From: Hyphomicrobiales bacterium
GTDB lineage: Bacteria > Pseudomonadota > Alphaproteobacteria > Rhizobiales > Rhodobiaceae
Assembly: GCA_002869065.1 (NCBI GenBank)
Contig: PKTR01000006.1
Location: 248,001 to 312,000, forward strand
Length of the DNA: 64,000 nt
Reading direction: 5' to 3'
Below the pieces are notes generated by a model that searched no databases, was not told where the DNA came from, and saw nothing but the letters and a program-made list of their open reading frames with translations. Numbering within the stretch: the first letter of the stretch is position 1; every line of letters begins with the position of its first letter. The translations under genes and the position numbers were made by a program. Below, one piece after another: positions 10,200-30,040 of the stretch.

Positions 10200-11942
<1,743 letters not shown>

Positions 11943-14625: not shown

Positions 14626-14635
14626 GGTCGTTCTT

Positions 14636-15643
14636 TCAGTTCGACTTCAAGGAAGCACGCACGCTTTCGACCAGCGCCCGTCCGTCGAGTCCGGCGCCTT
14701 CGGCCGCCCCATACCAGGCTTCGTAAACCGGCCCGCTGAACTCGTCGCCAACCAGGCGCGAAATCTCGGCATCATCGATGACGACGTAGTTTGTCCCATG
14801 AGCGCGCCACTTGTCAGCGAGATCCTGATTGCGGGCCTCATAACTGTCGTAGAGCTCCCCCTGCCATGCGGCGAGTTCGTCGGTGATCGCCTTCTGAAGG
14901 TCTTCGGGCAATTCGCCAAGCGAGTCGGCGTTGATCAACAGCTCCCAGGGGAGGTAGGCCGCGACTTTCCATTCCGAGACATGCGTCACCACGTCCGGCA
15001 GGCCCGAAGCCTCGGCCCAGCAGCTTGCGGTGAAGACGCCGTCGATGACGCCCTGCTGGAGGCCGGGCAGGATTTCGGCCGCGGGGAGGGCTGTCGGCTT
15101 CGCGCCGGCGGCAGCAATCAGCCGGCCGGTTTCGGGATTGTGCACCCGGAGCTTCTTGCCGGACAACTCGTCGACGGTCGAGATCGCATCGACGGACGCC
15201 AGGATCTGCGGGCAGAACGGCACGTTCATCAGCGAAACACTGTTGAAGTCGGCCCGCCACATCTCGGCGAATTTCGCTCCCAGGTCGCCATCCATCAGCG
15301 AACGGTACTCCGCAAGGCTGTTGACCAGGCCGGGCAGGGCGGGAACGCCAAGCAGCGGCTTGGTGCCGGCGTAATAGGCGTCGACAACGAGCCCCATATC
15401 CACCTGACGGTCCCGGATGCCCGGGGCCAGTGCCGCACCGCCCAGAAGCGATGAGTTGATCTTGATTTCGACGCGGCCGTCCGTGGCCTTGCTGATACGA
15501 TCCGAAATCGTCTCAGCGACTTCAAGGTAGGATGTTCCCTTGAAGGCAAGATAGCCCAGCACGAGCTCATGGTCGGCCGCCAACGCAACGGTGCATGTGC
15601 TCATTGAGATGACCGCCGCCAAACCGGCTCCAACAATTCTCAT
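14636..15643 (-). CDS. TRAP transporter solute-binding protein (DctP family)
   Basis: This 335-aa periplasmic binding protein captures the ligand for the fused permease. The start at 15643 (MRIVGAGLAAVISM) is set by GGAGGAAACAG upstream and gives a clean signal peptide ending in VALAADHE. DctP features include the SLLGGAALAPGIRDRQVDMGLV segment, GKKLRVHNPETGRL with the conserved carboxylate-binding Arg, and QQGVIDGVF. The ligand cannot be named; a monocarboxylate feeding the neighbouring CoA pathway is the simplest guess. It is divergent from the maoC/SDR/ACAD operon. Confidence 0.92.
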   Translation of the reverse strand: MRIVGAGLAAVISMSTCTVALAADHELVLGYLAFKGTSYLEVAETISDRISKATDGRVEIKINSSLLGGAALAPGIRDRQVDMGLVVDAYYAGTKPLLGVPALPGLVNSLAEYRSLMDGDLGAKFAEMWRADFNSVSLMNVPFCPQILASVDAISTVDELSGKKLRVHNPETGRLIAAAGAKPTALPAAEILPGLQQGVIDGVFTASCWAEASGLPDVVTHVSEWKVAAYLPWELLINADSLGELPEDLQKAITDELAAWQGELYDSYEARNQDLADKWRAHGTNYVVIDDAEISRLVGDEFSGPVYEAWYGAAEGAGLDGRALVESVRASLKSN

Positions 15644-15808
15644 TTCTGTTTCCTCCACTTTGTGTCGTGCCTTGCGATCAGGCACCGCTGGTGGAATGGC
15701 ACTTTCCCCGGCTCCCTTTCGGGAAGCGCTGGCGCGTTTCAGCTGATCCGCCATTCTTCTTCTGCAGCAGCCAAACAGTGGTCTGCAACGCGCCGTCTGT
15801 CAACAAAA

Positions 15809-15831
15809 ATGAATGACGACCCATTATTCAT
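15809..15831 (-). promoter_or_regulatory. Regulon palindrome, copy 1, upstream of dctP
   Basis: On the minus strand this reads ATGAATAATG, 7 bases, ATTCAT, followed 5 nt later by TTGACA (15798-15803). The halves ATGAATAATGG and TCGTCATTCAT are imperfect inverted repeats. The same block recurs at 16123, 20245 and 29218, always just upstream of a TTGAC(A/T) box and ahead of a catabolic operon. The candidate regulator is the TetR protein at 23415-24083. The rest of the 564-bp gap between 15643 and 16208 shows no convincing gene. Confidence 0.75.
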
Positions 15832-16122
15832 TATTAGAATTACCGTCAACGTGGAACAAACGACATTCCCTGTCCGGACGTCCCAACCGCCCGGTATTGA
15901 GGATGCGGGCGAGGCGCCTGCGTGTCGCGCGCGCGCATCGCCGAGTCTGTGCCGGTCGATGTTCTCAATGTGCAACCTTATCGCGGCTCGCTATCCGGGC
16001 GGCCTGATCGTGTTGACGCAGCCTGTATATGGACGGCGTCCCGCGCGCGCATCTTTTCCGTTGCCGGGTTGTTCCGCTGCGTTTGTCTTGATTTTTGGTA
16101 GGTGAGTTCGCGCGGCATAAAT

Positions 16123-16145
16123 ATGAATAATGGTTCGTAATTCAT
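16123..16145 (+). promoter_or_regulatory. Regulon palindrome, copy 2, upstream of the maoC/SDR/ACAD operon
   Basis: ATGAATAATG, 7 bases, ATTCAT, with TTGACA at 16153-16158 (7 nt further on) and a weak -10, AAGGAT, after 17 bp. From here the sequence is nearly identical to the minus-strand copy at 29218-29240, because both belong to a duplicated segment. Confidence 0.78.
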
Positions 16146-16207
16146 TTTTTTGTTGACACCCCCTCCTTTCGCCGGAAGGATTGCCCCGACACATCAGGGA
16201 GACAGTC

Positions 16208-16285
16208 ATGGGCACTGCTGCAGGGCCATTCGCGGCTTTCGCGGGGATCGGCGAGATCTTGCCGCTGTTCAGCCGCCAGACCTGA
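16208..16285 (+). pseudogene. In-frame remnant fusing thiolase start to DUF35 end
   Basis: A 25-codon reading frame, MGTAAGPFAAFAGIGE followed by ILPLFSRQT and TGA. The first 16 residues equal the start of the thiolase at 29155. The rest corresponds to the DUF35 C-terminus (EILPLFKRQF) encoded at 27591. The two parents share CGG-x-GAGAT at the join (thiolase CGGAGAGAT, DUF35 CGGCGAGAT), consistent with a deletion of about 1.5 kb at a short direct repeat. The GGGAGACAG ribosome-binding site is kept, so the mini-ORF may still be translated ahead of maoC. Confidence 0.85.
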
Positions 16286-16326
16286 CCAGTATTGGCCTGA
16301 CCAGTATTGGCCTGACCAGTATTGGC
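16282..16326 (+). repeat. Three perfect tandem copies of a 15-bp unit
   Basis: The unit CTGACCAGTATTGGC is repeated exactly three times between the thiolase/DUF35 remnant and maoC. The other copy of the duplication (27,575-27,600) has only a short unrelated linker here, so the repeat arose after the duplication. The unit is a multiple of three, and a fourth unit is partly present as CGACC. Confidence 0.95.
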
Positions 16327-16433
16327 CGACCAAAAAGGCGGCCTGAACAAAAGACGGGCGCAACGACCAGGCGCCCCGAACGGCAAGAAGACGCGACCGG
16401 CATCGACGCATGGCCGGCAAGGAGGAGAACGCA

Positions 16434-16904
16434 ATGACCTCGGGTTGGCAGGACTTCCCGCAAGGCAAGGTGGTCACCACCGCCGCCATCACCGTCACCG
16501 AGACCCATCTGGTGCAGTTCTCCGGGCTCACCGGCGACTTCTATCCCGTCCACACCGACGCCGAATGGGCCGCAAAAAGCGCCTTCGGCCAGCGCATCGC
16601 CCACGGGCCGCTCACCTTCGCGCTCGCCGTCGGGCAAATGTACCAGTCGCAGGCCTATGGCAACGCCATCATCGCCTGGCTCGGCGCCGACAATGTGCGC
16701 GCAACCAACCCCGTCTTCATCGGCGACACGATCCACGTCAAAGCCGAGGTCCTCACCTCAAGACAGGCCAAAAACCCCGACCGCGGCATCGTCACACTCA
16801 AATACAACGTCATAAACCAGAACAATGATGTCGTGATGTCGTTCGACTTCGCGCTCCTCATGCGATCGCAGGGCGCAGCGTCCGAGCTCTCGTCCGCGCA
16901 GTGA
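16434..16904 (+). CDS. MaoC-family (R)-enoyl-CoA hydratase, copy A
   Basis: This 156-aa hot-dog fold hydratase starts at 16434 after AAGGAGGAGAACGCA. The catalytic Asp and His lie in SGLTGDFYPVHTDAEWA and the (R)-hydratase helix follows with FGQRIAHGPLTFALAVGQM. Residues 1-135 are identical to the second copy at 27015-27488. The last 21 residues differ (SFDFALLMRSQG here, EAQLAMLMRARP there). It is followed by SDR, acyl-CoA dehydrogenase and thiolase genes, an order suggesting hydration in a beta-oxidation-like sequence. Confidence 0.93.
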   Translation: MTSGWQDFPQGKVVTTAAITVTETHLVQFSGLTGDFYPVHTDAEWAAKSAFGQRIAHGPLTFALAVGQMYQSQAYGNAIIAWLGADNVRATNPVFIGDTIHVKAEVLTSRQAKNPDRGIVTLKYNVINQNNDVVMSFDFALLMRSQGAASELSSAQ

Positions 16905-16938: not shown

Positions 16939-17733
16939 ATGATGGCGGAACGTTACGCGGCAAAGCCGCTGGCCGGCAAAGTCGTTCTGGTCACCGGCGG
17001 CAAACGCGGGATCGGTCTGGCAACCGCCAGGCTCGCGCGATTGCGCGGCGCGCACGTCGCGGTGTGCGATTGCCCGGACCGCGAGCTACCAGTCGATGAA
17101 CTGGACCGAGATACGCTTTTTCTGGAGGGCGATGTCTCGATGGAGGACGACTGCGAGCGGTTCGTGTCCGAGACCGTCGCGCATTTCGGCCGCATCGATG
17201 TTCTGGTCAACAATGCCGGCATCGTCGAGCCGTCCCGCTCGACACTCAGGCAAGACCTCGAAACATGGCGCCGGGTGATCGACGTGAACCTGCAGGCGGT
17301 TTTCCTGATGGCGAGGGCCGCCGCCCGTGCCATGGTCGAGCAAGGGATCGCGGGAGCGATCGTGAATGTGTCGTCGATCGTCGGGCTGAACGGATTTCGC
17401 GCCAACAACGCCTACGGCCCCGCAAAGGCAGGGGTGGCGATGCTCACGAAGACGTTGTCGAACGACCTCGCGCGCACGGGTATCCGCGTAAATGCCGTGG
17501 CGCCGGGGTTCACGAATACGCGCATGACCGAGAAACTCGGCGACACGACGCCGGTGCACAAGGAGGCGTTTCTTGCGCGCATCCCGCTTGGACGCTTTGG
17601 CGAAGCCGAAGAGATCGCCGCGGCGATCCTCTTCCTCGGCTCCGATGAAGCGAGCTACGTGACCGGTGCGGTGCTGCCGATCGACGGCGGATGGGCTGCT
17701 TTTGGCGGTCCGTCCGAAGAGACGGCAGCATGA
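16939..17733 (+). CDS. Short-chain dehydrogenase/reductase (FabG-like)
   Basis: This 264-aa NAD(P)-dependent oxidoreductase starts at 16939 (or the adjacent ATG at 16942) after GGGAGGTGGTGCGCA. It has the cofactor motif TGGKRGIG, the NNAG motif (DVLVNNAGIVEPS), the catalytic Ser in VSSIVGLNG and Tyr-x3-Lys in YGPAK. In this operon it probably oxidises a 3-hydroxyacyl-CoA made by the MaoC hydratase (inference). It lies 34 bp after maoC and 82 bp before the acyl-CoA dehydrogenase. Confidence 0.92.
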   Translation: MMAERYAAKPLAGKVVLVTGGKRGIGLATARLARLRGAHVAVCDCPDRELPVDELDRDTLFLEGDVSMEDDCERFVSETVAHFGRIDVLVNNAGIVEPSRSTLRQDLETWRRVIDVNLQAVFLMARAAARAMVEQGIAGAIVNVSSIVGLNGFRANNAYGPAKAGVAMLTKTLSNDLARTGIRVNAVAPGFTNTRMTEKLGDTTPVHKEAFLARIPLGRFGEAEEIAAAILFLGSDEASYVTGAVLPIDGGWAAFGGPSEETAA

Positions 17734-17815: not shown

Positions 17816-18961
17816 ATGAACGAAGCGGTCTATTTCGACGAACAGCATCAGCAATTCCGCGAAAGCATCCGCCGGTTCATCGAGAACGAGGTCGTTCCGA
17901 ACGGCGAGGCCTGGGAAGAAGCGGGCATGGTGCCGCGCGATGTGCTGCGCAAGATGGGCGAGCTCGGCTACCTCGGTATCCGCTACCCGGAAGAATATGG
18001 CGGTTCGGAACTCGACACCATTTACAGCATGATTTTCCTTGAGGAGGTCGGGCGCTCGACGTTCGGCGGCTTCACCGCGACCGTCATGGTGCATACCGAC
18101 ATGGCCTCGCCGCATCTCGCCCACTACGGATCCCGCGAGCAGCTTTCGCGCTACATGCCGGACTTCATCTCAGGCGAGAAAATCTGCGCCATTGCGGTGA
18201 CCGAGCCCGACGCCGGGTCGGACGTGGCCGGCCTGCGCACCCGCGCCGTGCTCGACGGCAACGAATGGGTGTTGAACGGCTCGAAGATGTTCATCACCAA
18301 CGGCGTTCACGCCGACGTGGTCTTCGTTGCCGCCCGCACCGACCCGGAAGCGAAGGGATCGCGAGGCCTCTCGATGTTCATCGTCGAAAAGGGAACGCCG
18401 GGCTTCAATATCAGCCGGGCACTGAAGAAAAGCGGCTGGCTGTGTTCAGACACCGCCGAACTCTCCTTCGACGACTGCCGCATTCCGGCCGGCAATCTGC
18501 TTGGCGAAGAGAACCGCGGTTTCTACCAGATCATGCACAATTTCCAGCTCGAACGCATGATCATCGGCGCCTACACGATGGGCGAATGCGCCAAGGCGAT
18601 CGAGCTTACGCTGGACTATGTCCGCAACCGCAAGGCCTTCGGCGGCACCCTCTGGGACAAGCAGGCGATCCGCCAGCGACTTGCAATGCGCGCCGCGCAG
18701 GTCGAGGCCGGACGGCAGCTCGTCTATCACTCGGCCTGGCTGGACAGCCAGGGACGCGACTGCGTGAAGGAGGTCTCGATGGTCAAGGCCTACTGCGGCG
18801 AACTGGTCAACCAGGTCATGTACGACTGTCAGCAGTTCCACGGCGGCTTTGGATATATGCGCGAGGCGCCGATCGAGCGAATGGTACGCGACGCGCGCAT
18901 CTCGGCGATCGGCGGCGGCGCGACCGAAGTGATGCTGGAAGAAATCGCGAAGCGCATGTGA
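17816..18961 (+). CDS. Acyl-CoA dehydrogenase (LCAD/IVD type)
   Basis: This 381-aa FAD enzyme introduces the alpha,beta double bond in an acyl-CoA. The start at 17816 follows GGGAGGAAGCA. FAD/substrate motifs are AVTEPDAGSDVAGL and GSKMFITNG. The position of the usual catalytic Glu of medium-chain enzymes is Gly here (AIGGGATEV). A Glu in QLERMIIGAYTMG matches the alternative base of isovaleryl- and long-chain dehydrogenases, so branched or unusual acyl groups are plausible substrates. It is third in the maoC operon. Confidence 0.93.
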   Translation: MNEAVYFDEQHQQFRESIRRFIENEVVPNGEAWEEAGMVPRDVLRKMGELGYLGIRYPEEYGGSELDTIYSMIFLEEVGRSTFGGFTATVMVHTDMASPHLAHYGSREQLSRYMPDFISGEKICAIAVTEPDAGSDVAGLRTRAVLDGNEWVLNGSKMFITNGVHADVVFVAARTDPEAKGSRGLSMFIVEKGTPGFNISRALKKSGWLCSDTAELSFDDCRIPAGNLLGEENRGFYQIMHNFQLERMIIGAYTMGECAKAIELTLDYVRNRKAFGGTLWDKQAIRQRLAMRAAQVEAGRQLVYHSAWLDSQGRDCVKEVSMVKAYCGELVNQVMYDCQQFHGGFGYMREAPIERMVRDARISAIGGGATEVMLEEIAKRM

Positions 18962-18995
18962 CACCGACATCGCGCATTCAATGGGAAGAGACATC

Positions 18996-20183
18996 ATGAT
19001 CAGCAAGAACACTTCGCGGGTCGGCGTGACGATCGTCGGCAGCGGCCACACCCGGTTCGGACGCCTTGACGACATGAGTGTGGAGGACCTCGTCGTCGAC
19101 GCGTCGCGGGAAGCGCTCGCAAGCTCGGGGCTGCCGGCCGAAGAGATCGACGCGATCTTCCTCGGCCACTTCAACTCGGGGCTGGTGCCGGACGGTTTTG
19201 CCTCCAGTTTGGTCCATCAGGCCGACGAAGCCCTGCGCTTTACCCCGGCGATCCGCTGCGAAAACGCCTGCGCCTCGGGCGCGGCGGCGATCATGTCGGG
19301 CATTCGTGCGATCCAGGCGGGTGCGGCGAAAAACGTGTTTGTCGTCGGCGTCGAGAAGATGACGTCGCGCAGCACGCCGGAAGTCACCACCGCACTCGGC
19401 GGGGCGGGCTACCAGCATAATCCCGAAGAAGCCTCGTTGAGTTTTCCTCAGGTCTTCGCACGGGCCGCTGAGGCCTACGGCGCCGCCTATGGCGATCCGT
19501 CACTGGCAATGGCGATGATCGCCCAGAAGAACCATCGCAATGCGCTGGCGAATCCCTTGGCGCATATGCAGCGTGAAATGAGCCTGGAGTTCTGCAACAC
19601 GGTTTCGGACAAGAACCCGCTCATCGCCGACCCTTTGCGGATGACCGATTGTTCGCTCATCACCGATGGCGCCGCTGCGCTGGTGCTGACCGCCGAAGAC
19701 AAGGCGGACGGTTTCGCCAAGCGCGCGCGGTTCCGCGCCGCCGAGCAGGTCAGCGACTTTCTCCCGATGTCCCGCCGCGACTTCCTTGCCTTCGAGGGAC
19801 CGCGCCTGGCCATGGCACGCGCCTTCGAAGCGGCCGGCGTTGGCGTCGATGATATCGATTTCGCCGAAGTCCATGACTGTTTCACCATCGCCGAGCTGAT
19901 GATCTACGAGGCGATGGGACTCGCCCCGGCAGGCCGTGGTATCGACGCGCTGTCGAGCGGTGCCGTGTATCGCGGCGGAAAGCTGCCGGTGAATCTCTCG
20001 GGCGGCCTGAAGGCCAAGGGACACCCGGTCGGCGCGACCGGAGTTTCGATGCACGCGCTCGCCTACCGCCAGCTGACCGGGTCGGCCGGCGACATGCAGA
20101 TCGAGGACGCAAATCTCGGCCTCGTCTTCAACATGGGCGGTTCTGCCGTCGCCAACTACGTTTCGATCCTCGAAAGCTGCTGA
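18996..20183 (+). CDS. SCP2-type thiolase / acetyl-CoA acetyltransferase
   Basis: This 395-aa thiolase is started at 18996 (MISKNTSRVGV) because GGAAGAG lies 5 nt upstream; an ATG at 18981 has no ribosome-binding site. The nucleophilic Cys is in ENACASGAAA and the His-containing loop is LKAKGHPVGATG. The C-terminal region has FNMGGSA rather than a C-x-G motif, as in SCP2-like thiolases. It would cleave the 3-ketoacyl-CoA made by the upstream SDR (inference), and it ends the operon. Confidence 0.9.
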   Translation: MISKNTSRVGVTIVGSGHTRFGRLDDMSVEDLVVDASREALASSGLPAEEIDAIFLGHFNSGLVPDGFASSLVHQADEALRFTPAIRCENACASGAAAIMSGIRAIQAGAAKNVFVVGVEKMTSRSTPEVTTALGGAGYQHNPEEASLSFPQVFARAAEAYGAAYGDPSLAMAMIAQKNHRNALANPLAHMQREMSLEFCNTVSDKNPLIADPLRMTDCSLITDGAAALVLTAEDKADGFAKRARFRAAEQVSDFLPMSRRDFLAFEGPRLAMARAFEAAGVGVDDIDFAEVHDCFTIAELMIYEAMGLAPAGRGIDALSSGAVYRGGKLPVNLSGGLKAKGHPVGATGVSMHALAYRQLTGSAGDMQIEDANLGLVFNMGGSAVANYVSILESC

Positions 20184-20267: not shown

Positions 20268-20477
20268 TTTTATTGACTCGGCGGTGCATTTCGTCCCTAA
20301 TTTCGGATGCAGGAACTGGCGCATTGCGGATCGCCTTCGGCGCAATCCGAATTGAGAACTGGCGGGAAGCCGAGCATCGGGGACGCTCCTCGACACAGAT
20401 CCGGACCAACCGGACGCGTGCACACCGCATTTTTGGAAAACACGACCAGTCCGCGACCTCACCAGGAGGAGGAAACG

Positions 20478-21545
20478 ATGTTCAGAATGTCCAAGATCGC
20501 GACGTCGGCTGCGCTCGCCGCGGCGCTCGCCGTGCCGGGAGCCGCTGTGGCCGACGACTTCAACGCAACCGTGGTGGCCGGACTTCCACCGACGGTGCTG
20601 TTCGTGAAAATGCTGCCGGAAAGCTTCCTGCCGGCCATCGAGTCCGGTCTGGCTGCGTCCGGCCACACGATGACCTTCAACGAGCAATATGGCGGCGCGA
20701 TCGCCAGCAACGGCGAAGAGATCGAGGTCGTGTCGGCGGGGCTGGCAGAACTCGGCTACTGCATCGCCGCCTTGCGCGCCTCGAAACTGCCGCTACAGAA
20801 CATGACCTATTACACGCCGTTCGTGTCGAGCGACGTGTCGGATGTCGCGGCGGTCATGAACCGCCTGCAGTTCGAAAACAAGGCCATGGCGGGGCTTTGG
20901 ACTGACAACAATCTGGTCTATCTCGGCGGCCCGATCGGCATCGACGATTATGCCCTTCTGTCGACCAAGCCGGTCAACAGCATCGACGATCTCAAGGGCA
21001 TGAAGATCGCCACCCCCGGCGCGGCGCTCAACTGGCTGTCGGGCACCGGCGCCGTCGCCGTCTCGGCCAATCTGGCGACCTATTACAACGAGCTGAAAAC
21101 CGGCGTTTATTCCGGTGTTGTCGTGTCACCGAGCCTCGCCGCTCCGATGAAGCTGAACGAGGTGGCGCCGCATGTGACCATCGCCAGCCTCGGCGCGAAT
21201 TACATCGGCGGACTATGCGCCAACAAGGACTGGTTCGACGGGCTGCCCGAAGACGTTCAGAAGACCTTGTTCCAGGCGGCGGACACCGCTGGCGCCTGGT
21301 ACGCCAAGGAAATCGAGGCGGCCTATCAGCGTGGGCTCGACAAGATGACGGCCGCGGGCGCAACGGTGGCCATAGCGCCGGAAGAACTGCGGGCCGCCTG
21401 GGCCAAGGGGCTCGACAATGCCGCCAAGGAATGGGCAAAGGCGCTCGACGCGCAAGGCATGCCCGGAACGGAAACGCTCGCTATCTACATGAACGCGATG
21501 CGCGAAAGCGGCGCCAAGCCGCTGCGCAATTGGGATCAGGAGTGA
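20478..21545 (+). CDS. TRAP transporter solute-binding protein, second system
   Basis: This 355-aa periplasmic protein starts at 20478 after AGGAGGAGGAAACG. Residues 1-25 are a signal peptide ending in GAAVADDF. It has a DctP fold with NSIDDLKGMKIATPG and the downstream cleft strand TGVYSGVVVSPS, but is only weakly similar to the binding protein at 14636. It shares an operon with dctQ and dctM (4-bp gap, then overlap). Co-control with the first TRAP system suggests related ligands or two affinity ranges. Confidence 0.9.
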   Translation: MFRMSKIATSAALAAALAVPGAAVADDFNATVVAGLPPTVLFVKMLPESFLPAIESGLAASGHTMTFNEQYGGAIASNGEEIEVVSAGLAELGYCIAALRASKLPLQNMTYYTPFVSSDVSDVAAVMNRLQFENKAMAGLWTDNNLVYLGGPIGIDDYALLSTKPVNSIDDLKGMKIATPGAALNWLSGTGAVAVSANLATYYNELKTGVYSGVVVSPSLAAPMKLNEVAPHVTIASLGANYIGGLCANKDWFDGLPEDVQKTLFQAADTAGAWYAKEIEAAYQRGLDKMTAAGATVAIAPEELRAAWAKGLDNAAKEWAKALDAQGMPGTETLAIYMNAMRESGAKPLRNWDQE

Positions 21546-21549
21546 GGCC

Positions 21550-22080
21550 GTGCCTCCTGCGATCCAAGAAACCCGGGAGCCGCGGCCGCTGCGGCTCCTC
21601 GACCGCCTCACGCAGGCTTTGAACATCTCTGGTTCTCTGCTGATTTTCGGATTGGTGCTACTCGTCGGCGCCGACGTCTTCGGGCGCAACCTCTTCGGCA
21701 CTCCGGTTGCCGGCGTGCCCGAACTCGTCTCCATGACCATCGTCGGGATCGTGTTTCTGCAGATCCCGCAATGCCTGCGTGAAGGTAGGATGTCGCGCGC
21801 CGAAGCGACCGACATGTTCCTCGCCCGGCGTCTGCCGGCACTTCGGTCCGTACTGCACACGGTGTTCGACATCGTCAGCATCGGCATGATCGGGATCGTG
21901 GTCGCGGCAACCTGGCCGATGTTCGTGAAATCCGTGACGAGGAACGAGTTCATCGGTGCGATCGGCAACTTCACCGCCCCGACCTGGCCGATCCGCGTCG
22001 CAATTCTGGTCGGCGGCACCGCTCTTGCGCTGCAGTTCGCCGCACAGATCTGGCGGCGCTGGACGAGGCGCCCACGATGA
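21550..22080 (+). CDS. TRAP transporter small permease (DctQ)
   Basis: This 176-aa protein has four membrane helices and starts with GTG at 21550, 4 bp after the binding protein gene. It contains VLLVGADVFGRNLFGTPVAG and PELVSMTIVGIVFLQIP, the DctQ signature region with Arg and Glu near the membrane face. It overlaps dctM by 4 bp (ATGA). In contrast to the first system, Q and M are separate proteins. Confidence 0.9.
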   Translation: MPPAIQETREPRPLRLLDRLTQALNISGSLLIFGLVLLVGADVFGRNLFGTPVAGVPELVSMTIVGIVFLQIPQCLREGRMSRAEATDMFLARRLPALRSVLHTVFDIVSIGMIGIVVAATWPMFVKSVTRNEFIGAIGNFTAPTWPIRVAILVGGTALALQFAAQIWRRWTRRPR

Positions 22081-23384
22081 CCCCGTTCGATATCGGGCTC
22101 ATTGCGCTGGCGGCTATCTGCGTTCTTGTCTTTCTCGGGCTCTATGTCCCGATCGCATTGATGCTGTGCTCCTTCGTCGGCGTGTGGGCCATCAAGGGCA
22201 ATATGGATCTGTCCGTGAAGCTTCTCGGCATCGCCGCGAACCACGCGATTTCAAGCTACTTCTTTGGCGTCATTCCGCTATTCGTCTTCATGGGGTTTGT
22301 CGTTTCGGAGACAGGACTGGGGCGCGACGCCTTCGATGTCGCCAATGCCGCGTTCAAGAAGTTTCGCGGCGGTCTGGCCATCGGCACCGTCGGCGCCAAT
22401 GCGATCTTTGCGGCAATCACTGGCGTTTCCATCGCGTCTGCCGCCGTGTTTTCGAAGATCGCAGTGCCGGAGATGATCCGGCATGGATACGGCCGCAGGT
22501 TTTCCGTCGGCGTGGTCGCCGGCAGCTCCGTTCTCGGAATGCTCATCCCGCCCTCCTTGCTGATGATCCTGTACGGGCTGCTGGCCGAACAATCGATCGG
22601 GGATCTGTTCATCGCCGGCGTCGTGCCGGGAATGCTTCTGGCGCTCGCCTTTGCTGTCGGCATCGTCGTGATGAGCTATCTGATGCCGGGCTTCGTCGGC
22701 TCGCCCGACCACGAATATGCGGAGCCGCTAAGCGCAGGCGACTGGCTGGCCAAGGGACTGCCGATCGCGTTGCTGGTCGCCGTCGTCCTTGGCGGCATCT
22801 ATGGCGGCTATTTCACGCCGGTCGAAGCCGGCGCCGTCGGCTCGATCGGCGCGCTGCTGATCGCGATGGCCCGGCGCGCAATCACGTTCAGGATTTTCTG
22901 GAGGGTGCTGGTCGAGACGGGCCTTGTGACCGCAACGATCTGCTTCCTGCTGATCGCCGCGCAGATGTATTCCCGCATGCTGGCATTCTCCGGCGTCCCG
23001 GCCGGTATGGGCCACGCGGTTGCCGCCGCCGACCTGTCCTTCACCATGGTGCTTGCGATCTATCTGTTGGTCCTGATTGCGCTCGGCATGATCCTCGACA
23101 GTTCGTCGATCCTGCTGATCATCGTGCCGATCATGCTGCCGGTCTTTGCACCGATGGGTGTCGACCTCGTCTGGTTCGGCGTAGTCACGGTCATCGCCGT
23201 CGAGATCGGCCTCCTGACGCCGCCATTCGGCCTGTCGGTCTACGTCATCAAGGGGACGCTCGAAGACAGGTCGATCTCGCTCGGCGACATCTTCCTGGGC
23301 GCTGCCCCGTTCGCCCTCATCATGCTGTTGATCCTGCTTCTGGTCGCAGCTTTCCCGCAGTTGGCCCTGGTGCTGGTCAACTGA
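22077..23384 (+). CDS. TRAP transporter large permease (DctM)
   Basis: This 435-aa membrane protein has about twelve helices and forms the elevator transport domain. Family blocks include GVSIASAAVFSKIAVPEMI, SVLGMLIPPSLLMILYG and TPVEAGAVGS; the C-terminus has EIGLLTPPFGLSVYVIKG. It ends 31 bp before the convergent TetR gene, and a perfect 10-bp inverted repeat spans the two 3' ends. Confidence 0.95.
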   Translation: MTPFDIGLIALAAICVLVFLGLYVPIALMLCSFVGVWAIKGNMDLSVKLLGIAANHAISSYFFGVIPLFVFMGFVVSETGLGRDAFDVANAAFKKFRGGLAIGTVGANAIFAAITGVSIASAAVFSKIAVPEMIRHGYGRRFSVGVVAGSSVLGMLIPPSLLMILYGLLAEQSIGDLFIAGVVPGMLLALAFAVGIVVMSYLMPGFVGSPDHEYAEPLSAGDWLAKGLPIALLVAVVLGGIYGGYFTPVEAGAVGSIGALLIAMARRAITFRIFWRVLVETGLVTATICFLLIAAQMYSRMLAFSGVPAGMGHAVAAADLSFTMVLAIYLLVLIALGMILDSSSILLIIVPIMLPVFAPMGVDLVWFGVVTVIAVEIGLLTPPFGLSVYVIKGTLEDRSISLGDIFLGAAPFALIMLLILLLVAAFPQLALVLVN

Positions 23385-23439
23385 AAACGGATAGAGTCTT
23401 GGACGGGAAAGCGATCAGTTGTCGGACGAATCCGTTTTC
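23383..23439. terminator. Inverted repeat between convergent dctM and tetR
   Basis: GAAAACGGAT (23383-23392) and ATCCGTTTTC (23430-23439) form a perfect 10-bp stem with a 37-nt loop. The AAAA/TTTT ends would give a T-run on both strands, so a bidirectional terminator is plausible. The right arm lies inside the last codons of tetR. Confidence 0.45.
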
Positions 23440-24083
23440 GATCCGGTAGCGGCGAACAGACCGCCTTCGAGCAGCTTGACGTAAGTCGAAAGAAAGCCGC
23501 TCGCCTTTTCTTCGTCGAAGGTTTCGTCGGAATAGCTTGCCTGCATCATCAGATAGCTGCGGGCGCCCATGAGGATGTAGACGATGGTCTTCAGCTCGGC
23601 TTCGCTGAAAGAGCGAAGCTCTCCGTTTTCCATCTGTTTTCTCAGGCCCTTTTCGTAGACCGAGGCAAATTTGCGGACGTGTTCGCGAAAGGCGTTCGGC
23701 GCGTAGACTTCGGCTTCGTTTAGGACCCTGAGGAAGCCCGGATTCTCGGCGAAGAAGGCAAATGAGGACGCCATGCGCTGGCGCTCGAGTTCGACGCCGC
23801 TGGCGTTCCGGTCGACATTTTCGCGGATGTAGTCGAGCAGACGTTCGCCTTCGGCCGGCAACAGCTGGTCGAAAAGGTCCTGCCGTGTTTCGAAGTAGTT
23901 GTAGAAGGTGCCGTTCGCGACCCCGGCAAGCTCGGTGATACGCGCAATCGAGGCGCCTTCGTAACCGTGCTTGCCGACCACCGTGGCTGCTGCAGAGAAC
24001 AGGGCACTCCTGGTTTCGAGCGCCTTGACCTCACGTTTGCCGGGTTTCTTCCGAGTGGTTGCAGCAACGCTTCGACTTGGCAA
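23415..24083 (-). CDS. TetR-family regulator, likely controller of the catabolic regulon
   Basis: This 222-aa protein has a basic N-terminal tail and a TetR helix-turn-helix (residues ~25-70: GASIARITELAGVANGTFYNYFETRQDLF). The ligand domain is all-helical and not specific. It is the only regulator between 12 and 29 kb, in the middle of the island and flanked by operons that carry the shared palindrome, so it is the best candidate to bind it (inference). The palindrome is not found upstream of tetR itself. A CoA thioester is the expected effector for this type of regulator. Confidence 0.85.
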   Translation of the reverse strand: MPSRSVAATTRKKPGKREVKALETRSALFSAAATVVGKHGYEGASIARITELAGVANGTFYNYFETRQDLFDQLLPAEGERLLDYIRENVDRNASGVELERQRMASSFAFFAENPGFLRVLNEAEVYAPNAFREHVRKFASVYEKGLRKQMENGELRSFSEAELKTIVYILMGARSYLMMQASYSDETFDEEKASGFLSTYVKLLEGGLFAATGSKTDSSDN

Positions 24084-24296: not shown

Positions 24297-25214
24297 CTAT
24301 TCGCCGATCAGATACTGCTGGAGCCAGGGGATCGTCTCGCGCGAAGCAATCTCCACCTTCGAGACGTTGCCATAGAGGCTCATATGCGTGATGTCGCCCA
24401 GTACCACGAGCTTCTTCTTCGGGGTCAGAATCGCGTTGAAAGCTTCGGTCTCCTTGTCCCACATGGTCAGGGTGTCCTTTTCGGCGATGACCATCATGGT
24501 GGGGATGTTCACGATCCGCCCGACATAGGGCATCACCGTGTAGAGTTCGCAAAGCTCCGTCGATTCAATCGTCGACCAGTGCTCGTGGTTGGGCGCGACC
24601 GTCTCCTTGAGCTTCATGAAGCCCTCATAGACGTCCGGATAGGGCCAGTGGGCCATTGTCGTGAACGGATCCGGGACCGACATCGGGATTTTTGATTCCG
24701 TGTTCGGGTCCTTGAACTTGGCGCTGCGGTACTCGAGCAGCGTCCGCTGCAATTCGCGATAGCGGGCCTCGCCATGGCCGATGCGCAAGGTTTCCGCGCC
24801 ATCGATCAGCGGGATGTTGGAGACGATGCACTTGATGCGCGGTTCGATGGCGCCGAGGATCAGCACGTGGCCGCCGGAATACGAAATGCCCCAGATGCCG
24901 ATCCGGTCCGCATCGACCTCGGGCAGGGTCTCCGCATAGTCGATCGCGGCGCGGTAGTCCTCGATCTGCATCCACGGATCTGCGTGCTGGCGCGGTTCGC
25001 CGTCGCTGTCGCCGAAGCAGCGGTAATCGAAGATCAGGCAGGCAACGCCGGCCTCGACAAAGAAGTCGGCGTATTCCGGCATGACGATTTCTTTGACGTA
25101 GCACCAGCCGCCGGCCATCACCAGGAGCGGCATCGGCCCGTCGACGTTGTCGGGGGTTTTCAGAATGCCCCGCACGGTCACGCCCTGGCTCTGGAATTCG
25201 ATCTCGCGTTCCAT
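24297..25214 (-). CDS. Alpha/beta hydrolase
   Basis: This 305-aa hydrolase starts at 25214 (MEREIEFQSQGVTVRG) after GGGAGGAAGACA. The nucleophile elbow is GISYSGG, and an oxyanion/fold segment is ACLIFDYRCFGDSDG. An acid residue is likely in VIAEKDTLTM and the His in GDITHMSLYG. The closest functional type is a dienelactone-hydrolase/X-Pro-like esterase or C-C hydrolase; the substrate is unknown. It is the last gene of the minus-strand cluster, 93 bp after the acyl-CoA synthetase, and may release the acid that the synthetase activates. Confidence 0.88.
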   Translation of the reverse strand: MEREIEFQSQGVTVRGILKTPDNVDGPMPLLVMAGGWCYVKEIVMPEYADFFVEAGVACLIFDYRCFGDSDGEPRQHADPWMQIEDYRAAIDYAETLPEVDADRIGIWGISYSGGHVLILGAIEPRIKCIVSNIPLIDGAETLRIGHGEARYRELQRTLLEYRSAKFKDPNTESKIPMSVPDPFTTMAHWPYPDVYEGFMKLKETVAPNHEHWSTIESTELCELYTVMPYVGRIVNIPTMMVIAEKDTLTMWDKETEAFNAILTPKKKLVVLGDITHMSLYGNVSKVEIASRETIPWLQQYLIGE

Positions 25215-25307
25215 TGTCTTCCTCCCAAAATCCTGCTTCGCCGTTCGCTTGTCGGATACGGCTGTTGTTGAGTGCGCGCCCGTGCCTGCAGGCGCGGACA
25301 CCTGCGT

Positions 25308-26948
25308 TCAGCCTTTCGCTTCCTGCTCCAGGATTTCCATTGCCGACGCCTGCACCTTGCGGCGGTCGAGCTTGCCGGTCGGCGTGATCTTCCAGACCGC
25401 CTTGGAGACGAAGAACACCCGCTTCGGGATCTTGTATCCGGCCAGCTTGCCGCGGCATGCGTCACGGACCTTGGCTTCGCTCAGCTCAGCGGCAGGGTCG
25501 GCTTCGATGAGTGCGGTGACTGCCTCGCCCCATTTTTCGTCCGGCGTGCCGCAAACCACGGCCTTGATGACGCCGGGAATTTCCGTTGAAAGAAACATCT
25601 CGACTTCGAGCATCGAGACATTTTCGCCGCCCGACTTGATGATCTCCTTGTAGCGGCCGCGGTAGTAGAGATAGCCGTCCGCATCGACCCAGCCGTAGTC
25701 GCCGGTGTGGAAGAACCCGTCGTCATCGATGCATTCGGCCGATTCCGTGGGCATGTTGTAGTAGCCTTGGAACAGGTTCGGCCCGCGTACGCAGATCTCG
25801 CCGGGCTCGCCGACCGGCACTTCCTTGCCGGTATCCTGCGATATGATACGGACCTCGTTCGAGGTCGGACGGCCATTCGATTGCTTCATGCGTTCCACAT
25901 CGAAACGGTCGCGGTAGGGGAAGAAGGTAGAACCGCCCATGGATTCGGAGGTGCCGTACAGGCTCCCGATATGGGCAAACCCCATCGCGTAGATCGCATC
26001 GAAGGTCGACGGGTTGGAGCCTGACATGGTGCGGGTGATGCTGGACAGGTCGTGCTGGCCGTATGACGGGCTATTGCGCATCATCGCAAAATGGGTGTCG
26101 AAGCCCCAGAACAGGGTGACGGGATCGCTCTCGATCAGCCGCATCGCCTCTTCGGGGTCGAACCAGTGCATCAGGCGGGACGTTCCCCCGCGCATCAGCG
26201 GAATGCACATCGAAATGATGCCGCCGACATGGTAGTTCGGCGTCGTCAGCAGGAAGGTGTCGACGGCAGTGGCCTCGAGACCGTCGGCGTAGTTGCATAT
26301 GCCGCACAGCATCGACTGATGCGTATGGATTGCCGGCTTGGGAAATGACGTCGTGCCCGAGGTCAGCAGCAGCAGGGCCTGATCGTCCGGCCGCGGCGCG
26401 ACGTGGCCTTGCGGTGGCCATTGGCCGGCATCCGCGCTCGAAGCGAGTGCATCGAGATGACGGGCAAAGCCGGGCACTTCGACGTCCGCGCCCTCGACGA
26501 AGACAGAACGCAGCTGCAAACCTTCGATGTCGATGTTGTCCGGGCTGGCATCTGCCAGTGCAGGCAGCGCTTCGAGGAATTTGCTGACGAGGTTCTCGCC
26601 CCGGTGCGGCGCGCCAATCACCAGGAACTTTGCATCCGTGAGCCGCAGCCCCTGCGAAATCTCCTCGCCGACCCAGGTCAGATTGAGCGGCACCACCTTT
26701 GCGCCGAGCGCCAGCGTGGCGAAGAAAAGCTCTACCCAGCGCGGTGAAACGCTCATCATGTAGGCGACATGATCGCCCGGGCGAACTCCCTGCTGGTGCA
26801 GCGCAAGCGCCAGTGCATCGACCCGTTGTGCGAGTTCAGCGAAGGTGATCGCGTCCTCGGCAAAGCGGACGGCAACATTCTGCGGCCAGTTGCGAGCCGA
26901 GTACTGCAGCATCCGGGGGAATGTCTGCCCCCGCCATTCCTGAAACAT
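25308..26948 (-). CDS. AMP-forming acyl-CoA synthetase
   Basis: This 546-aa ANL-family ligase activates the imported acid to its CoA thioester. The P-loop is LLTSGTTSFPKPA (Ser replaces the usual Gly after TT). Other motifs are YGTSESMGG, HTGDYGWVDADGYLYYRGR, and the catalytic Lys in ITPTGKLDRRKVQ. AIHTHQSM and YHVGGI in the N-terminal domain resemble cyclohexane- or aryl-carboxylate and fatty acid ligases; the exact substrate cannot be read. It lies 66 bp downstream of maoC copy B, so it is probably in the same operon as the thiolase, DUF35 and MaoC genes. Confidence 0.93.
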   Translation of the reverse strand: MFQEWRGQTFPRMLQYSARNWPQNVAVRFAEDAITFAELAQRVDALALALHQQGVRPGDHVAYMMSVSPRWVELFFATLALGAKVVPLNLTWVGEEISQGLRLTDAKFLVIGAPHRGENLVSKFLEALPALADASPDNIDIEGLQLRSVFVEGADVEVPGFARHLDALASSADAGQWPPQGHVAPRPDDQALLLLTSGTTSFPKPAIHTHQSMLCGICNYADGLEATAVDTFLLTTPNYHVGGIISMCIPLMRGGTSRLMHWFDPEEAMRLIESDPVTLFWGFDTHFAMMRNSPSYGQHDLSSITRTMSGSNPSTFDAIYAMGFAHIGSLYGTSESMGGSTFFPYRDRFDVERMKQSNGRPTSNEVRIISQDTGKEVPVGEPGEICVRGPNLFQGYYNMPTESAECIDDDGFFHTGDYGWVDADGYLYYRGRYKEIIKSGGENVSMLEVEMFLSTEIPGVIKAVVCGTPDEKWGEAVTALIEADPAAELSEAKVRDACRGKLAGYKIPKRVFFVSKAVWKITPTGKLDRRKVQASAMEILEQEAKG

Positions 26949-27014: not shown

Positions 27015-27488
27015 CTATCCGGCAAGCGTCTGATGCGCTTCCTCCGCTGGACGCGCCCGCATCAGCATCGCGAGCTGCGCTTCCATCACCACATCGTTGT
27101 TCTGGTTTATGACGTTGTATTTGAGTGTGACGATGCCGCGGTCCGGGTTTTTGGCCTGTCTTGAGGTGAGGACCTCGGCCTTGACGTGGATCGTGTCGCC
27201 GATGAAGACGGGGTTTGTCGCGCGCACATTGTCGGCGCCGAGCCAAGCGATGATGGCGTTGCCGTAGGCCTGCGACTGGTACATCTGCCCGACGGCCAGG
27301 GCGAAGGTGAGCGGCCCGTGGGCGATGCGCTGGCCGAAGGCGCTTTTGGCGGCCCATTCGGCGTCGGTGTGGACGGGATAGAAGTCGCCGGTGAGCCCGG
27401 AGAACTGCACCAGATGGGTCTCGGTGACGGTGATGGCGGCGGTGGTGACCACCTTGCCTTGCGGGAAGTCCTGCCAACCCGAGGTCAT
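27015..27488 (-). CDS. MaoC-family enoyl-CoA hydratase, copy B
   Basis: This 157-aa protein is identical to copy A over residues 1-135, including the catalytic GDFYPVH segment, then diverges. The start at 27488 follows AAGGAGGAGAACGCG. It lies in the apparently ancestral arrangement thiolase-DUF35-maoC. MaoC hydratases paired with a DUF35 protein and a thiolase-like protein act in steroid side-chain degradation as hydratase plus retro-aldolase; that precedent may apply here. Confidence 0.93.
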   Translation of the reverse strand: MTSGWQDFPQGKVVTTAAITVTETHLVQFSGLTGDFYPVHTDAEWAAKSAFGQRIAHGPLTFALAVGQMYQSQAYGNAIIAWLGADNVRATNPVFIGDTIHVKAEVLTSRQAKNPDRGIVTLKYNVINQNNDVVMEAQLAMLMRARPAEEAHQTLAG

Positions 27489-27590: not shown

Positions 27591-27962
27591 TCAGAACTGG
27601 CGTTTGAACAGCGGCAGAATCTCGCCGTCGCGCTCGGCAAAGGTGACGGTGACCCGGTCGCCGATCGCCATGCCGTCGCGGTCGCCCTCGATGTTGGAGA
27701 GAAGCCGGACACCCTCGTCGAGCTCGATGACGGCCATCGCATAGGGCAGAAGCGGCACGAAGGCCGGCGGCGGGTTGTTGTGCACGACGGTGAAGCAGTG
27801 GATCACGCCGTTGCCGCTGGCCTCGCGCCAGTCGTAGGTCTCGCCCCAGCAATGCGGACAGGCCGAGCGTGGATAGAAGTGCGGACGGCCGCAGTCCTCG
27901 CACCAGGGTATCAACAGCTTGCGCGCCTTCAGGCCGGCGTGGAACGGTTCGGCAATTTTCAT
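27591..27962 (-). CDS. DUF35 zinc-ribbon/OB-fold protein, thiolase partner
   Basis: This 123-aa protein has a rubredoxin-like zinc ribbon with two Cys pairs, CEDCGRPHFYPRSACPHC, followed by an OB-fold (NGVIHCFTVVH, RVTVTFAERDGEIL). DUF35 proteins typically form a complex with a neighbouring thiolase-like protein and bind the acyl-CoA. The ATG at 27962 overlaps or abuts the thiolase stop (2-bp gap), so the pair is co-translated. Its C-terminal codons survive in the fused remnant at 16208-16285. Confidence 0.92.
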   Translation of the reverse strand: MKIAEPFHAGLKARKLLIPWCEDCGRPHFYPRSACPHCWGETYDWREASGNGVIHCFTVVHNNPPPAFVPLLPYAMAVIELDEGVRLLSNIEGDRDGMAIGDRVTVTFAERDGEILPLFKRQF

Positions 27963-27964
27963 CG

Positions 27965-29155
27965 TCAGCGTACCTCGTTCGTGAGAACCATGACCTGGGC
28001 GTCCATGTAGGTGCCGCCCGAACCGGTCTCGACGGCAATCTTTGCGCCCGGCACCTGGCGTGGGCCGGCTTTGCCCATGAGTTGGCGCAACGCCTCGACG
28101 AAGATCGATACGCCGCCGCCGGCGCCGGTATGACCGGCCGAGAGCATGCCGCCATTGGTTGTCATCGGCAGCGCCCCGCCGGGGAAGGTGCCGCCGGAGG
28201 CGACAAAGGCACCGGCCTCGCCACGCTCGACCAGCCCCATCTCCTCAAGAGCGATCAGGTTGATCACCGGATAGGCGTCATAGATTTCGGCAATGTCGAT
28301 GTCCTTGGGACCAATGCCAGCCATAGCGAAGGCTTCCGCCGCCGCATCCGCATAGCCCATGCGGGCGATGTCCATCTCCTGGGCCAGCGAGTAATGCGTC
28401 ACCCGCCCCGAGGCACCTGTGAGATAAACCGGCGTGTCGGTCAGATCGGCCGCGCGCTCGACCGAGGTGACGACGAAGGCCGAGGCGCCATCGGCCAGCA
28501 TGTTCGATTCCTTGGCGTGGATTGGCTCCGACAGCACCTTTGAGGAGAGCACCTCCTCGACCGTCAGCGGCTTGCGGAACATCGCATTGGGATTGAGTTC
28601 GGCCCATTTGCGGGCCGAGACGCAGACCGCGGCGAGTTGCTCGGCCGTCGTGCCGGTCTCGTACATGTAGCGGTTGGTCAGCATCGCTGCCATCGAGCCC
28701 ATGTGCTGGCCAAAGGGCTGCTCCCAGTGATCGGGAATGCCGAGCGTCGAGAACACCTCGATGGCGGTGGCGATGTCGATGCCGCTCTTGAGGCGGTCGG
28801 AATGGACGCACAGGACGTTCTTCGCCAGCCCGGACTTGACCAGCGCGGCGGCGGTCTTGGCCATCGCGCTGCCGCTGGCGCCGCCCGCCATCACCTGGAT
28901 GTTGGCGTGCGCAGTGCCGTTCAGGCCAAGCTCTTCGACCAGGCGGCCGAAGATCAGGTCGCTGTTGAAGTCGCGGTTGAAGATCGCGCCGGTCGGCATG
29001 ATGACGTCGATCTCGGACTTGTCGAGGCCGGCATCGCGCACCGCCATGCGGGCGGCCGTGGCCGCGGCCTCGAGCGCGGTGCGCTCGGGATAATCTCCGG
29101 TCGGGATCTCTCCGATCCCCGCGAAAGCCGCGAATGGCCCTGCAGCAGTGCCCAT
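27965..29155 (-). CDS. Thiolase-like protein lacking the nucleophilic Cys (Ltp type)
   Basis: This 396-aa thiolase-fold protein starts at 29155 (MGTAAGPFAAF) after GGGAGACAG, a site shared with copy A. Where active thiolases have (A/G)CASGS it reads GGASGS, so the nucleophilic Cys is Gly. IYDAYPVINL replaces the usual HD-A-F motif, and the His-Gly loop is SAGHTGAGG. Cys-less thiolases next to DUF35 proteins, such as Ltp2, are retro-aldolases that cut 3-hydroxyacyl-CoA side chains; that activity is inferred here, not shown. It is the first gene of the minus-strand operon. Confidence 0.88.
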   Translation of the reverse strand: MGTAAGPFAAFAGIGEIPTGDYPERTALEAAATAARMAVRDAGLDKSEIDVIMPTGAIFNRDFNSDLIFGRLVEELGLNGTAHANIQVMAGGASGSAMAKTAAALVKSGLAKNVLCVHSDRLKSGIDIATAIEVFSTLGIPDHWEQPFGQHMGSMAAMLTNRYMYETGTTAEQLAAVCVSARKWAELNPNAMFRKPLTVEEVLSSKVLSEPIHAKESNMLADGASAFVVTSVERAADLTDTPVYLTGASGRVTHYSLAQEMDIARMGYADAAAEAFAMAGIGPKDIDIAEIYDAYPVINLIALEEMGLVERGEAGAFVASGGTFPGGALPMTTNGGMLSAGHTGAGGGVSIFVEALRQLMGKAGPRQVPGAKIAVETGSGGTYMDAQVMVLTNEVR

Positions 29156-29217
29156 GACTGTCTCCCTAATGTGTCGGGGCAATCCTTCCGGCGAAAGGAG
29201 GGGGTGTCAACAAAAAA

Positions 29218-29240
29218 ATGAATTACGACCCATTATTCAT
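29218..29240 (-). promoter_or_regulatory. Regulon palindrome, copy 4, upstream of the thiolase-DUF35-maoC operon
   Basis: On the minus strand this reads ATGAATAATG, 7 bases, ATTCAT, then 7 nt later TTGACA (29205-29210). The halves match at 8 of 11 positions around a central G. It is the best copy and is identical to copy 2 over the outer arms. From here to the tRNA (29,241-29,463) nothing else was recognised. Confidence 0.78.
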
Positions 29241-29463: not shown

Positions 29464-29539
29464 TGGTGGGCCCGGCAGGACTCGAACCTGCAACCAGACC
29501 GTTATGAGCGGTCGGCTCTAACCATTGAGCTACGGGCCC
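29464..29539 (-). tRNA. tRNA with CAT anticodon, probably tRNA-Ile2
   Basis: A 76-nt cloverleaf on the minus strand. The acceptor stem is GGGCCCG paired with CGGGCCC, and CCA is encoded. The D-arm region is AGCTCAATGGTTAGAGC. The anticodon stem GACCG/CGGTC encloses CTCATAA, giving anticodon CAT. The T-arm is GGTTCGAGTCC. CAT can be Met or lysidine-modified Ile2; the body resembles rhizobial Ile2 more than elongator Met, but I could not confirm the identity. Confidence 0.93.
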
Positions 29540-30040
29540 TTATCAGCCGAATGCGCGGGGCGCTTGCGATGGTCACCGTGACAGAAGGTGAAAGACACCG
29601 CAGAGTGGACCCCGCGACGCTGCGCGTAAGGCGTGCAAGGACGCTGGAGACGCGCGGCTGAAAGGCCTTTCTGCCTACACCAGCGTCAGCCCATCCGGCA
29701 AGCCCGGATCGGGGCATATTGCGTGCTCGAACGCGCGCCCACGCTTTTGCCGCTTTTTTCGGTGACTGTCCGCCTGCGGCCCGGGGGCGGGCGCGATGTC
29801 GGCGGGCCGTGACAGGGCCTTGTCGTGCATCGCAGAACCGAGAGGTTCGCATGTCGCGACTGCAGGGGAAGGGCGCCGTCCGCGCCCGCGGCGAAAATTC
29901 ATTTGGCCGCATTAACGGACTTTCAAGGTTAATCAGCGATCAACAAAGGAAGACGCACGAAGGATGCTGCAGTTTGTCGGCATCACGCGTGGTTGCGTTG
30001 GTGTGCGCGTTGGGTAGTTCCAGAGTTGAGTAGTGTGCTG
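29540..30040. other. Intergenic stretch without a recognised gene
   Basis: Roughly 500 bp between the tRNA and the cell-wall hydrolase gene. Short open frames exist on both strands but lack ribosome-binding sites and sensible composition. The last ~150 bp is more AT-rich and should hold the promoter for the hydrolase. No repeat, operator or terminator with a clear T-run was seen. Confidence 0.5.

Follow-up and report, generated by a model that had tools for sequence, protein, structure and literature searches.

We analysed a 64,000-nucleotide stretch (hereafter the window) of contig PKTR01000006.1 from a Hyphomicrobiales bacterium of the Rhodobiaceae, focusing on two adjacent minus-strand genes that encode a thiolase-like protein devoid of the nucleophilic cysteine (hereafter the aldolase, after its predicted function) and a small DUF35 protein. 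Sequence comparisons suggest that the two proteins probably form a thiolase-fold acyl-coenzyme A (CoA) retro-aldolase and its DUF35 partner, acting by retro-aldol chemistry, and that the aldolase most likely adds to the thiolase-fold DUF35 aldolases a new, non-steroidal variant with a tyrosine/histidine (Tyr/His) active site. In the literature found, the known thiolase-fold aldolases act on steroid side chains and use Tyr/Tyr (Ltp2) or Tyr/Cys (Sal) residues, and these published schemes could be particular instances within a broader aldolase family.

Active site residues were mapped by alignment, with a numbering anchored on the YDHF motif of TcLtp2 and the YDCY motif of CtSal. In PMC12329534, the source for both enzymes throughout this text, the catalytic base of TcLtp2 is Tyr294 (YDHF) and its acid Tyr344, while CtSal relies on Tyr302 and Cys304 (YDCY), with Gln352 at the place of Ltp2 Tyr344 and a Gly at the place of the thiolase Cys; in the authors' model, the backbone of CtSal G89 contacts the substrate hydroxyl. 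The original prediction, made from the letters of the window, had placed a Cys-less thiolase in the aldolase gene, and both its limits and its motif proved right: the open reading frame runs on the minus strand from an ATG at 29155 to a stop at 27965, contains QVMAGGASGSAMAK, and carries Gly92 in alignment with the thiolase nucleophile Cys and with CtSal Gly89. Tyr292, which replaces the His of the thiolase HD[CAS]F motif, corresponds to TcLtp2 Y294 and CtSal Y302. The alignment with the catalytic tyrosines of Ltp2 that had been anticipated thus holds for this first residue, but not for the second, since the position of TcLtp2 Tyr344 and CtSal Gln352 is occupied by His342, the His of the thiolase GH motif. 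In addition, Ala294 stands at the position of CtSal Cys304 and of the oxyanion His296 of TcLtp2, and G381 aligns with CtSal G391. Because the second residue differs (His342, with Ala294), the aldolase is neither an Ltp2 nor a Sal but rather a Tyr/His version of these enzymes. In the eight rows of its close clade, G92, Y292, D293, Y295, H342 and G381 do not vary, position 294 holds Ala or Ser, and the overall pattern Gly / YD[AS]Y / GH[TS]G is kept throughout.

A tree built with IQ-TREE on 54 rows, comprising loci (duplicates removed) and four PDB chains, all drawn as relatives of the aldolase, was divided with 100/100 support into 16 Cys/HD thiolase rows and 38 Gly/YD rows, the latter including TcLtp2, CtSal and the aldolase. 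The proposed kinship with Ltp2-type aldolases is therefore borne out, the protein grouping with Ltp2 and Sal and not with the thiolases. A Gly at the nucleophile position goes with the Tyr of the [HY]D motif in 38/38 rows and a Cys with the His in 15/15, the remaining row having a gap at the nucleophile and a His in the motif. Among the 38 Gly/YD rows, 28 carry His at position 342, six Gln, three Tyr and one Glu, and the 28 rows with His have Ala or Ser (24) or Cys (4) at position 294. The Tyr/His arrangement is common in these Cys-less rows, a sample biased towards the query.

The close clade (8 rows, 100/100 support) lies apart from TcLtp2 and CtSal, which belong to other supported clades. 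It gathers the window with Hydrogenophaga (L008), two Desulfobacterales loci (L006, L007), a deltaproteobacterial metagenome-assembled genome (MAG; L005), a genome of the same order (G087, locus L020), Rhizobium etli (L039) and Rhodococcus (L040), covering at least three phyla (Pseudomonadota, Thermodesulfobacteriota and Actinomycetota) and reaching as far as the Desulfobacterales. The nearest relative is the Hydrogenophaga protein (72-73%). At E<=1e-120, the host genome alone has a match among 385 genomes of its class, and at E<=1e-80 matches occur in 5 of the 398 genomes of its phylum, its own included; the four other phylum matches (L044-L047) fall outside the close clade and were consequently left out of the clade neighbourhoods. 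Two genus mates lack a close relative (best E 9.6e-26 and 4.3e-27), and no relative was found in viral contigs.

The DUF35 gene starts 2 nt past the aldolase stop, and its product has the two Pfam domains of the ChsH2 type, zf-ChsH2 and OB_ChsH2_C, with a zinc ribbon CEDCGRPHFYPRSACPHC forming a CX2CX10CX2C, C4 site. The pairing with DUF35 read in the original prediction was correct: the DUF35s that accompany the two proven aldolases (CtShy, 5.2e-20; TcChsH2, 3e-18) are the best solved matches of the partner, with the thiolase partner 6esq_E (1.5e-13) behind them. In 8/8 clade loci the gene immediately after the aldolase encodes a DUF35, and a DUF35 match adjoins the Gly/YD gene in 28 of the 34 loci other than the window. 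The neighbourhoods also contain a MaoC relative in four of the eight clade loci (window, L005, L007 and L040) and a ligase in all except L006; the ligase lies about 7 kb from the aldolase in G087, and in L007 the contig ends within its gene. In the window, the MaoC hydratase does sit in the operon of the aldolase (27015-27488, minus strand), as had been claimed, and (R)-specific enoyl-CoA hydratases are among the solved MaoC-type proteins that it matches. As a separate observation, in the deltaproteobacterial MAG (L005, 7201-9905) a gene fusing an HMG-CoA-synthase-like domain (HMG, 3-hydroxy-3-methylglutaryl) to a DUF35, with a family score under the cut-off, and a thiolase directly precede the aldolase, DUF35 and MaoC genes; this thiolase resembles the Cys type by its HDCF motif, its nucleophile stretch falling outside the alignment. 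An HpaB-like gene in L006 and L007 was dropped as a substrate clue, the L007 copy scoring under the HpaB cut-offs.

Comparison with solved systems places the window pair beside, and not within, the described aldolases. With TcLtp2-ChsH2 (PDB 6ok1), it shares the thiolase fold, the Gly for Cys replacement, the catalytic Tyr (Y294 for Y292), about 30% identity and a DUF35 that is a separate partner with a C4 zinc site, but YDHF and Tyr344 stand against YDAY and His342, and the subclade is another one. With CtSal-CtShy (PDB 9myr), it has in common the fold, G89 for G92, Y302 for Y292 and linked MaoC and DUF35 functions, whereas CtSal, also of another subclade, carries an essential Cys304 and Gln352 instead of Ala294 and His342. 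The zinc site of the CtShy DUF35 is C3H1 (PMC12329534), unlike the C4 site of the window, where MaoC and DUF35 are moreover separate proteins. The top phmmer match of the aldolase in PDB (2.8e-54) is 4u4e, a putative thiolase from Sphaerobacter thermophilus with the same Tyr/His arrangement (Gly, YDSF and a His at position 342), but with 33-35% identity, YDSF in place of YDAY and a different subclade; no paper on 4u4e was found in the literature searched. The acetoacetyl-CoA thiolase (6esq/6et9) and the BbsAB benzoylsuccinyl-CoA thiolase (7pxp) resemble the window pair by their fold and DUF35 partner and were set apart as named thiolases, the active sites of 6esq and 7pxp lying outside the alignment; their relatives 7yvy and the archaeal tree rows have Cys and HD, both lacking in the window protein.

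An identity as SCP2-type or acetoacetyl-CoA thiolase was rejected, Gly92 replacing the Cys and Tyr292 the His, with the GH-motif His342 retained. In Pfam, the aldolase strongly matches Thiolase_C_1, and Thiolase_N is listed for the Cys-containing thiolase of the window but not for the aldolase. For the best 25 of its 32 NCBIfam matches the aldolase scores below cut-off, the top being PRK06158 (286 bits vs 421), whereas the Cys-containing thiolase is assigned to PRK07516 (606 bits vs a cut-off of 412) and has the motifs NACASGA / HDCF / GHPV. The database models closest to the aldolase carry the names 'acetyl-CoA acetyltransferase' or 'thiolase domain-containing protein'. An AlphaFold2 model computed from 14 sequences (predicted local distance difference test, pLDDT, 82; predicted template modelling score, pTM, 0.88; with 6 sequences, pLDDT 44, unusable) indicates that the protein has the thiolase fold. 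In VIA-align, this model matched 6esq_A (Z 51.1, root-mean-square deviation 2.1, 374 aligned), 9myr_A (50.4, 2.9, 382) and 6ok1_A (49.8, 2.3, 370), and these three and 7yvy_A all fall inside 1.3 Z.

From the chemistry of Ltp2 and Sal and the conservation described above, we infer the following reaction, roles and pathway order. A carboxylate would be taken up by a tripartite ATP-independent periplasmic (TRAP) transporter, activated by the ligase and oxidised by the acyl-CoA dehydrogenase to an enoyl-CoA, which MaoC would hydrate to a 3-hydroxyacyl-CoA, probably 3-branched. Tyr292 would then act as the base taking the proton of the 3-hydroxyl, leading to the breakage of the C2-C3 bond, and His342, the GH-motif His of thiolases retained after the loss of the Cys, would act as the acid protonating the enolate of acetyl-CoA or of an alpha-substituted acyl-CoA, with Gly92 providing the 3-hydroxyl with space and a backbone NH. 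Oxidation to a ketone is chemically impossible for a tertiary (3-branched) hydroxyl, a restriction that would account for the need for an aldolase. Unbranched or later intermediates, with an oxidisable 3-hydroxyl, may instead be processed by beta-ketothiolysis through the short-chain dehydrogenase/reductase (SDR) and the Cys-containing thiolase of the second operon. Cleavage of a 3-branched substrate into a ketone and acetyl-CoA appears likelier than cleavage of an unbranched one into an aldehyde.

Several points weigh against a retro-aldolase of this kind. To our knowledge, nobody has tested a catalytic role for a His at position 342, and in the literature found no member of the close clade has a proven reaction. 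The CtSal variants C304A, C304S and C304H are inactive, making the YDCY Cys essential in that enzyme (PMC12329534); this residue being Ala294 in the aldolase, activity must rest on His342. Gly153 furthermore occupies the place of the oxyanion-hole Gln161 of CtSal. On the tree, the coupling of Gly with Tyr counts as one event and not as 38 independent ones, and a separate DUF35 match is lacking in 6 of the 34 Gly/YD loci (L028, L030, L035, L041, L042 and L047), where the flank is ~1.4 kb in four and ~9 kb, without an annotated DUF35, in L041 and L042. Finally, Cys-thiolases and aldolases are nearly tied at Z of about 50, so the fold cannot decide the function, and since the alignment given to the predictor included Cys-thiolases, the Z ranking is uninformative in this respect.

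Within retro-aldol chemistry, an unbranched (secondary-alcohol) or alpha-methyl substrate could yield an aldehyde, handled by enzymes encoded elsewhere; we regard this as possible but doubtful, even though MaoC enzymes usually hydrate unbranched enoyl-CoA. The search for an aldehyde dehydrogenase, the activity of CtSad, returned nothing in the eight clade loci (tblastn, E<=1e-6, one query, with loci other than the window spanning 5.9-21 kb and L006 and L007 ending early), which favours a ketone product. Cleavage of a secondary alcohol to an aldehyde is the reaction of Sal (PMC12329534), and the cholate pathway legend of that source places CtSad after CtSal, unlike the clade loci. An enzyme acting by Cys-independent Claisen chemistry or by decarboxylation (malonyl-CoA-type decarboxylase, acyl transfer without acyl-enzyme, or 3-ketoacyl-CoA hydrolase) would fit the retention of the GH-motif His, and a slow decarboxylation of malonyl-CoA by TbSLP (YDCF) is cited in PMC12329534. 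Such an activity is nonetheless unlikely, CtSal giving no acetyl-CoA from malonyl-CoA in that source and the operon hydratase supplying a 3-hydroxyacyl-CoA and not a 3-keto or malonyl substrate.

The loss of the nucleophile, together with an in-frame deletion that removed the aldolase from one of two operon copies (see below), would be in line with a decayed thiolase kept as a scaffold, a DUF35 holder or a regulator of the Cys-containing thiolase. This appears improbable against the invariance of six active-site positions over at least three phyla, the His-to-Tyr change accompanying the loss of the Cys and the DUF35 gene adjoining in every clade locus. Most improbable of all is a direct Ltp2 or Sal acting on steroid or bile-acid side chains: the fold, DUF35 partner and catalytic Tyr are held in common, but the clade is separate, the second residue differs and the zinc site is C4, not C3H1. 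KshA_C (PF19298, one steroid-ring marker) has no match in the host genome, which is 99.19% complete, an absence that argues weakly against steroid-ring degradation (in the control, 14 genomes, Corynebacterium glutamicum alone gave a match, below the cut-off). A steroid role, the setting from which the original prediction took its Ltp2/DUF35 comparison, is unlikely. A literature search for non-steroidal Cys-less DUF35 aldolases, with subscription journals mostly outside its coverage, returned steroid work and unrelated papers.

For the retro-aldolase that we favour, mevalonate or HMG-type chemistry is the best substrate lead, without being our main claim. The clade would then be a non-steroidal retro-aldolase for 3-hydroxy-3-methylacyl-CoAs (HMG-CoA, mevalonyl-CoA, 3-hydroxy-3-methylbutyryl-CoA and kin), using its Tyr/His pair to give acetyl-CoA and a methyl ketone or acetoacetate. 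If true, the thiolase fold would here have given rise to an HMG-CoA lyase analogue; the lyase itself (HMGL-like, PF00682), whose cut would be of the same type, belongs to a TIM-barrel family unrelated to that fold. In Hydrogenophaga, the operon of aldolase, DUF35, ligase and TetR diverges from an adjoining ATP-binding cassette transporter cluster that encodes a degradative HMG-CoA reductase (TIGR00532, 426 bits against a cut-off of 260) and a 3-oxoacid CoA-transferase, and the 220-kb contig has no HMGL-like match. In G087, the permease beside the aldolase has 59% identity over 692 aa to the permease beside the HMG-CoA reductase, and the R. etli cluster includes a 3-oxoacid CoA-transferase and an acetoacetate-decarboxylase-family gene, the latter below its NCBIfam cut-off. 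HMG-CoA reductase occurs in 3/6 clade genomes vs 14/398 genomes of the phylum of the window, a post-hoc comparison in which half of the clade genomes (G833-G835) are MAGs from other groups.

Other observations run counter to this substrate. Hydrogenophaga has HMGL-like genes on other contigs, and in G087 the reductase is on another contig than the aldolase, with an HMGL-like gene of its own about 7 kb away. The host genome shows no match to HMG-CoA reductase and five HMGL-like matches, in a family that includes other enzymes. In G833, the reductase (50,559-base contig) is unlinked to the aldolase (56,033-base contig), on account of which the HMG reading, already unlikely, lost a little more of its probability; G834 and G835 have no reductase. 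A search of the mevalonate literature returned nothing on this enzyme.

Table. Features of the aldolase operon and of the surrounding island (window coordinates).
Feature	Position	Strand	Remarks
Cys-less thiolase-fold protein, predicted acyl-CoA retro-aldolase (G92, Y292, H342)	27965..29155	-	396 aa
DUF35 partner	27591..27962	-	123 aa; Zn ribbon CX2CX10CX2C and OB (oligonucleotide/oligosaccharide-binding) fold
MaoC-type enoyl-CoA hydratase	27015..27488	-	aldolase operon
AMP-binding acyl-CoA ligase	25308..26948	-	aldolase operon
Alpha/beta hydrolase	24297..25301	-	start codon uncertain; internal ATG would give a shorter protein
TetR-type regulator, putative island regulator	23415..24083	-	42% identity to the TetR of the Hydrogenophaga cluster
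TRAP transporter 1 (fused DctQM and DctP)	12553..15754	-	
Deletion scar: 25-codon mini-ORF (open reading frame), aldolase start fused in frame to DUF35 end	16208..16285	+	
Second MaoC (operon 2)	16434..16904	+	
SDR, candidate 3-hydroxyacyl-CoA dehydrogenase	16939..17733	+	
Acyl-CoA dehydrogenase	17816..18961	+	
Cys-containing SCP2-type thiolase	18981..20183	+	PRK07516 family, above cut-off
TRAP transporter 2 (DctP, DctQ, DctM)	20307..23384	+	DctP start uncertain
Operator-like site ATGAATTACGACCCATTATTCAT	29218..29240	.	upstream of aldolase operon
Operator-like site	16123..16145	.	upstream of operon 2
Operator-like site	15809..15831	.	upstream of TRAP transporter 1

The 23-bp operator-like site has three copies in the 4.04-Mb genome (<=3 mismatches), every one inside the island, with none for the reversed pattern or for shuffles. 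As the site is common to the three positions, the aldolase operon, the genes for MaoC2, SDR, acyl-CoA dehydrogenase, Cys-containing thiolase and TRAP2, and TRAP1 very likely form one regulon; TetR may bind the site, and the extent of each operon is likewise putative. The Cys-containing thiolase pointed out in the original prediction is indeed part of the island, in an operon with the same operator-like site. The reading of two chain-shortening routes proposed alongside it gains strength from the shared operator and the duplicated MaoC, parallel and successive routes being indistinguishable. The operon brings together MaoC, ligase and regulator with three operator-like sites, which makes it a compact system for finding the substrate. 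The string ATTCATTTTT...TTGACA was seen by eye both in the Hydrogenophaga aldolase promoter (L008 9691-9845) and in the window promoters (stretches 16123-16160 and 29200-29240); the complete 23-bp operator was not found in that L008 promoter region (best, 9 mismatches). Given also the resemblance of their TetRs, the operon may be transferred together with its regulator and promoter.

The head of the aldolase operon is duplicated and inverted at 16114-16838, at the start of operon 2, a feature that had escaped the original prediction. The arms of the inverted copy (145 and 505 nt) are 96% alike, and aldolase and DUF35 have been deleted from this copy, leaving the in-frame scar, with the MaoC copy kept after it; the letters GGCGAGAT are common to both deletion ends. 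Over their first 135 codons the two MaoC copies differ by 12 synonymous and 0 nonsynonymous codons, as expected if both genes are under selection; their C-terminal ends are different. With only synonymous differences, MaoC may serve both branches, one aldolase being kept. Three head-to-tail CCAGTATTGGCCTGA-like copies lie at the scar (16286-16330), between the mini-ORF and the MaoC copy.

At the edge of the island, just beyond the promoter of the aldolase operon, stands a tRNA-Met (29464-29539). No empty site indicating a clean insertion at this tRNA was seen in the genus mate G001, in which the tRNA matched on another contig; there, the conserved neighbour of 29993-31267 is present, and the preceding 14 kb have no island genes except a weak SDR match. 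Genes for the maturation protease and for the small and large subunits of a [NiFe] hydrogenase form a cluster directly upstream of the island (6152-11942). Elsewhere in the host genome (locus L055, C4:112500-132400), a second Cys-less thiolase/DUF35 pair was detected at about C4:121800-123308, on a branch next to CtSal, with YDDY and a Gln at the place of 342; nearby lie an ADP-forming-type acyl-CoA synthetase, a relative of acyl-CoA dehydrogenases, a gene judged crotonase-like by eye, and TRAP genes that include one for an NMT1-type binding protein.

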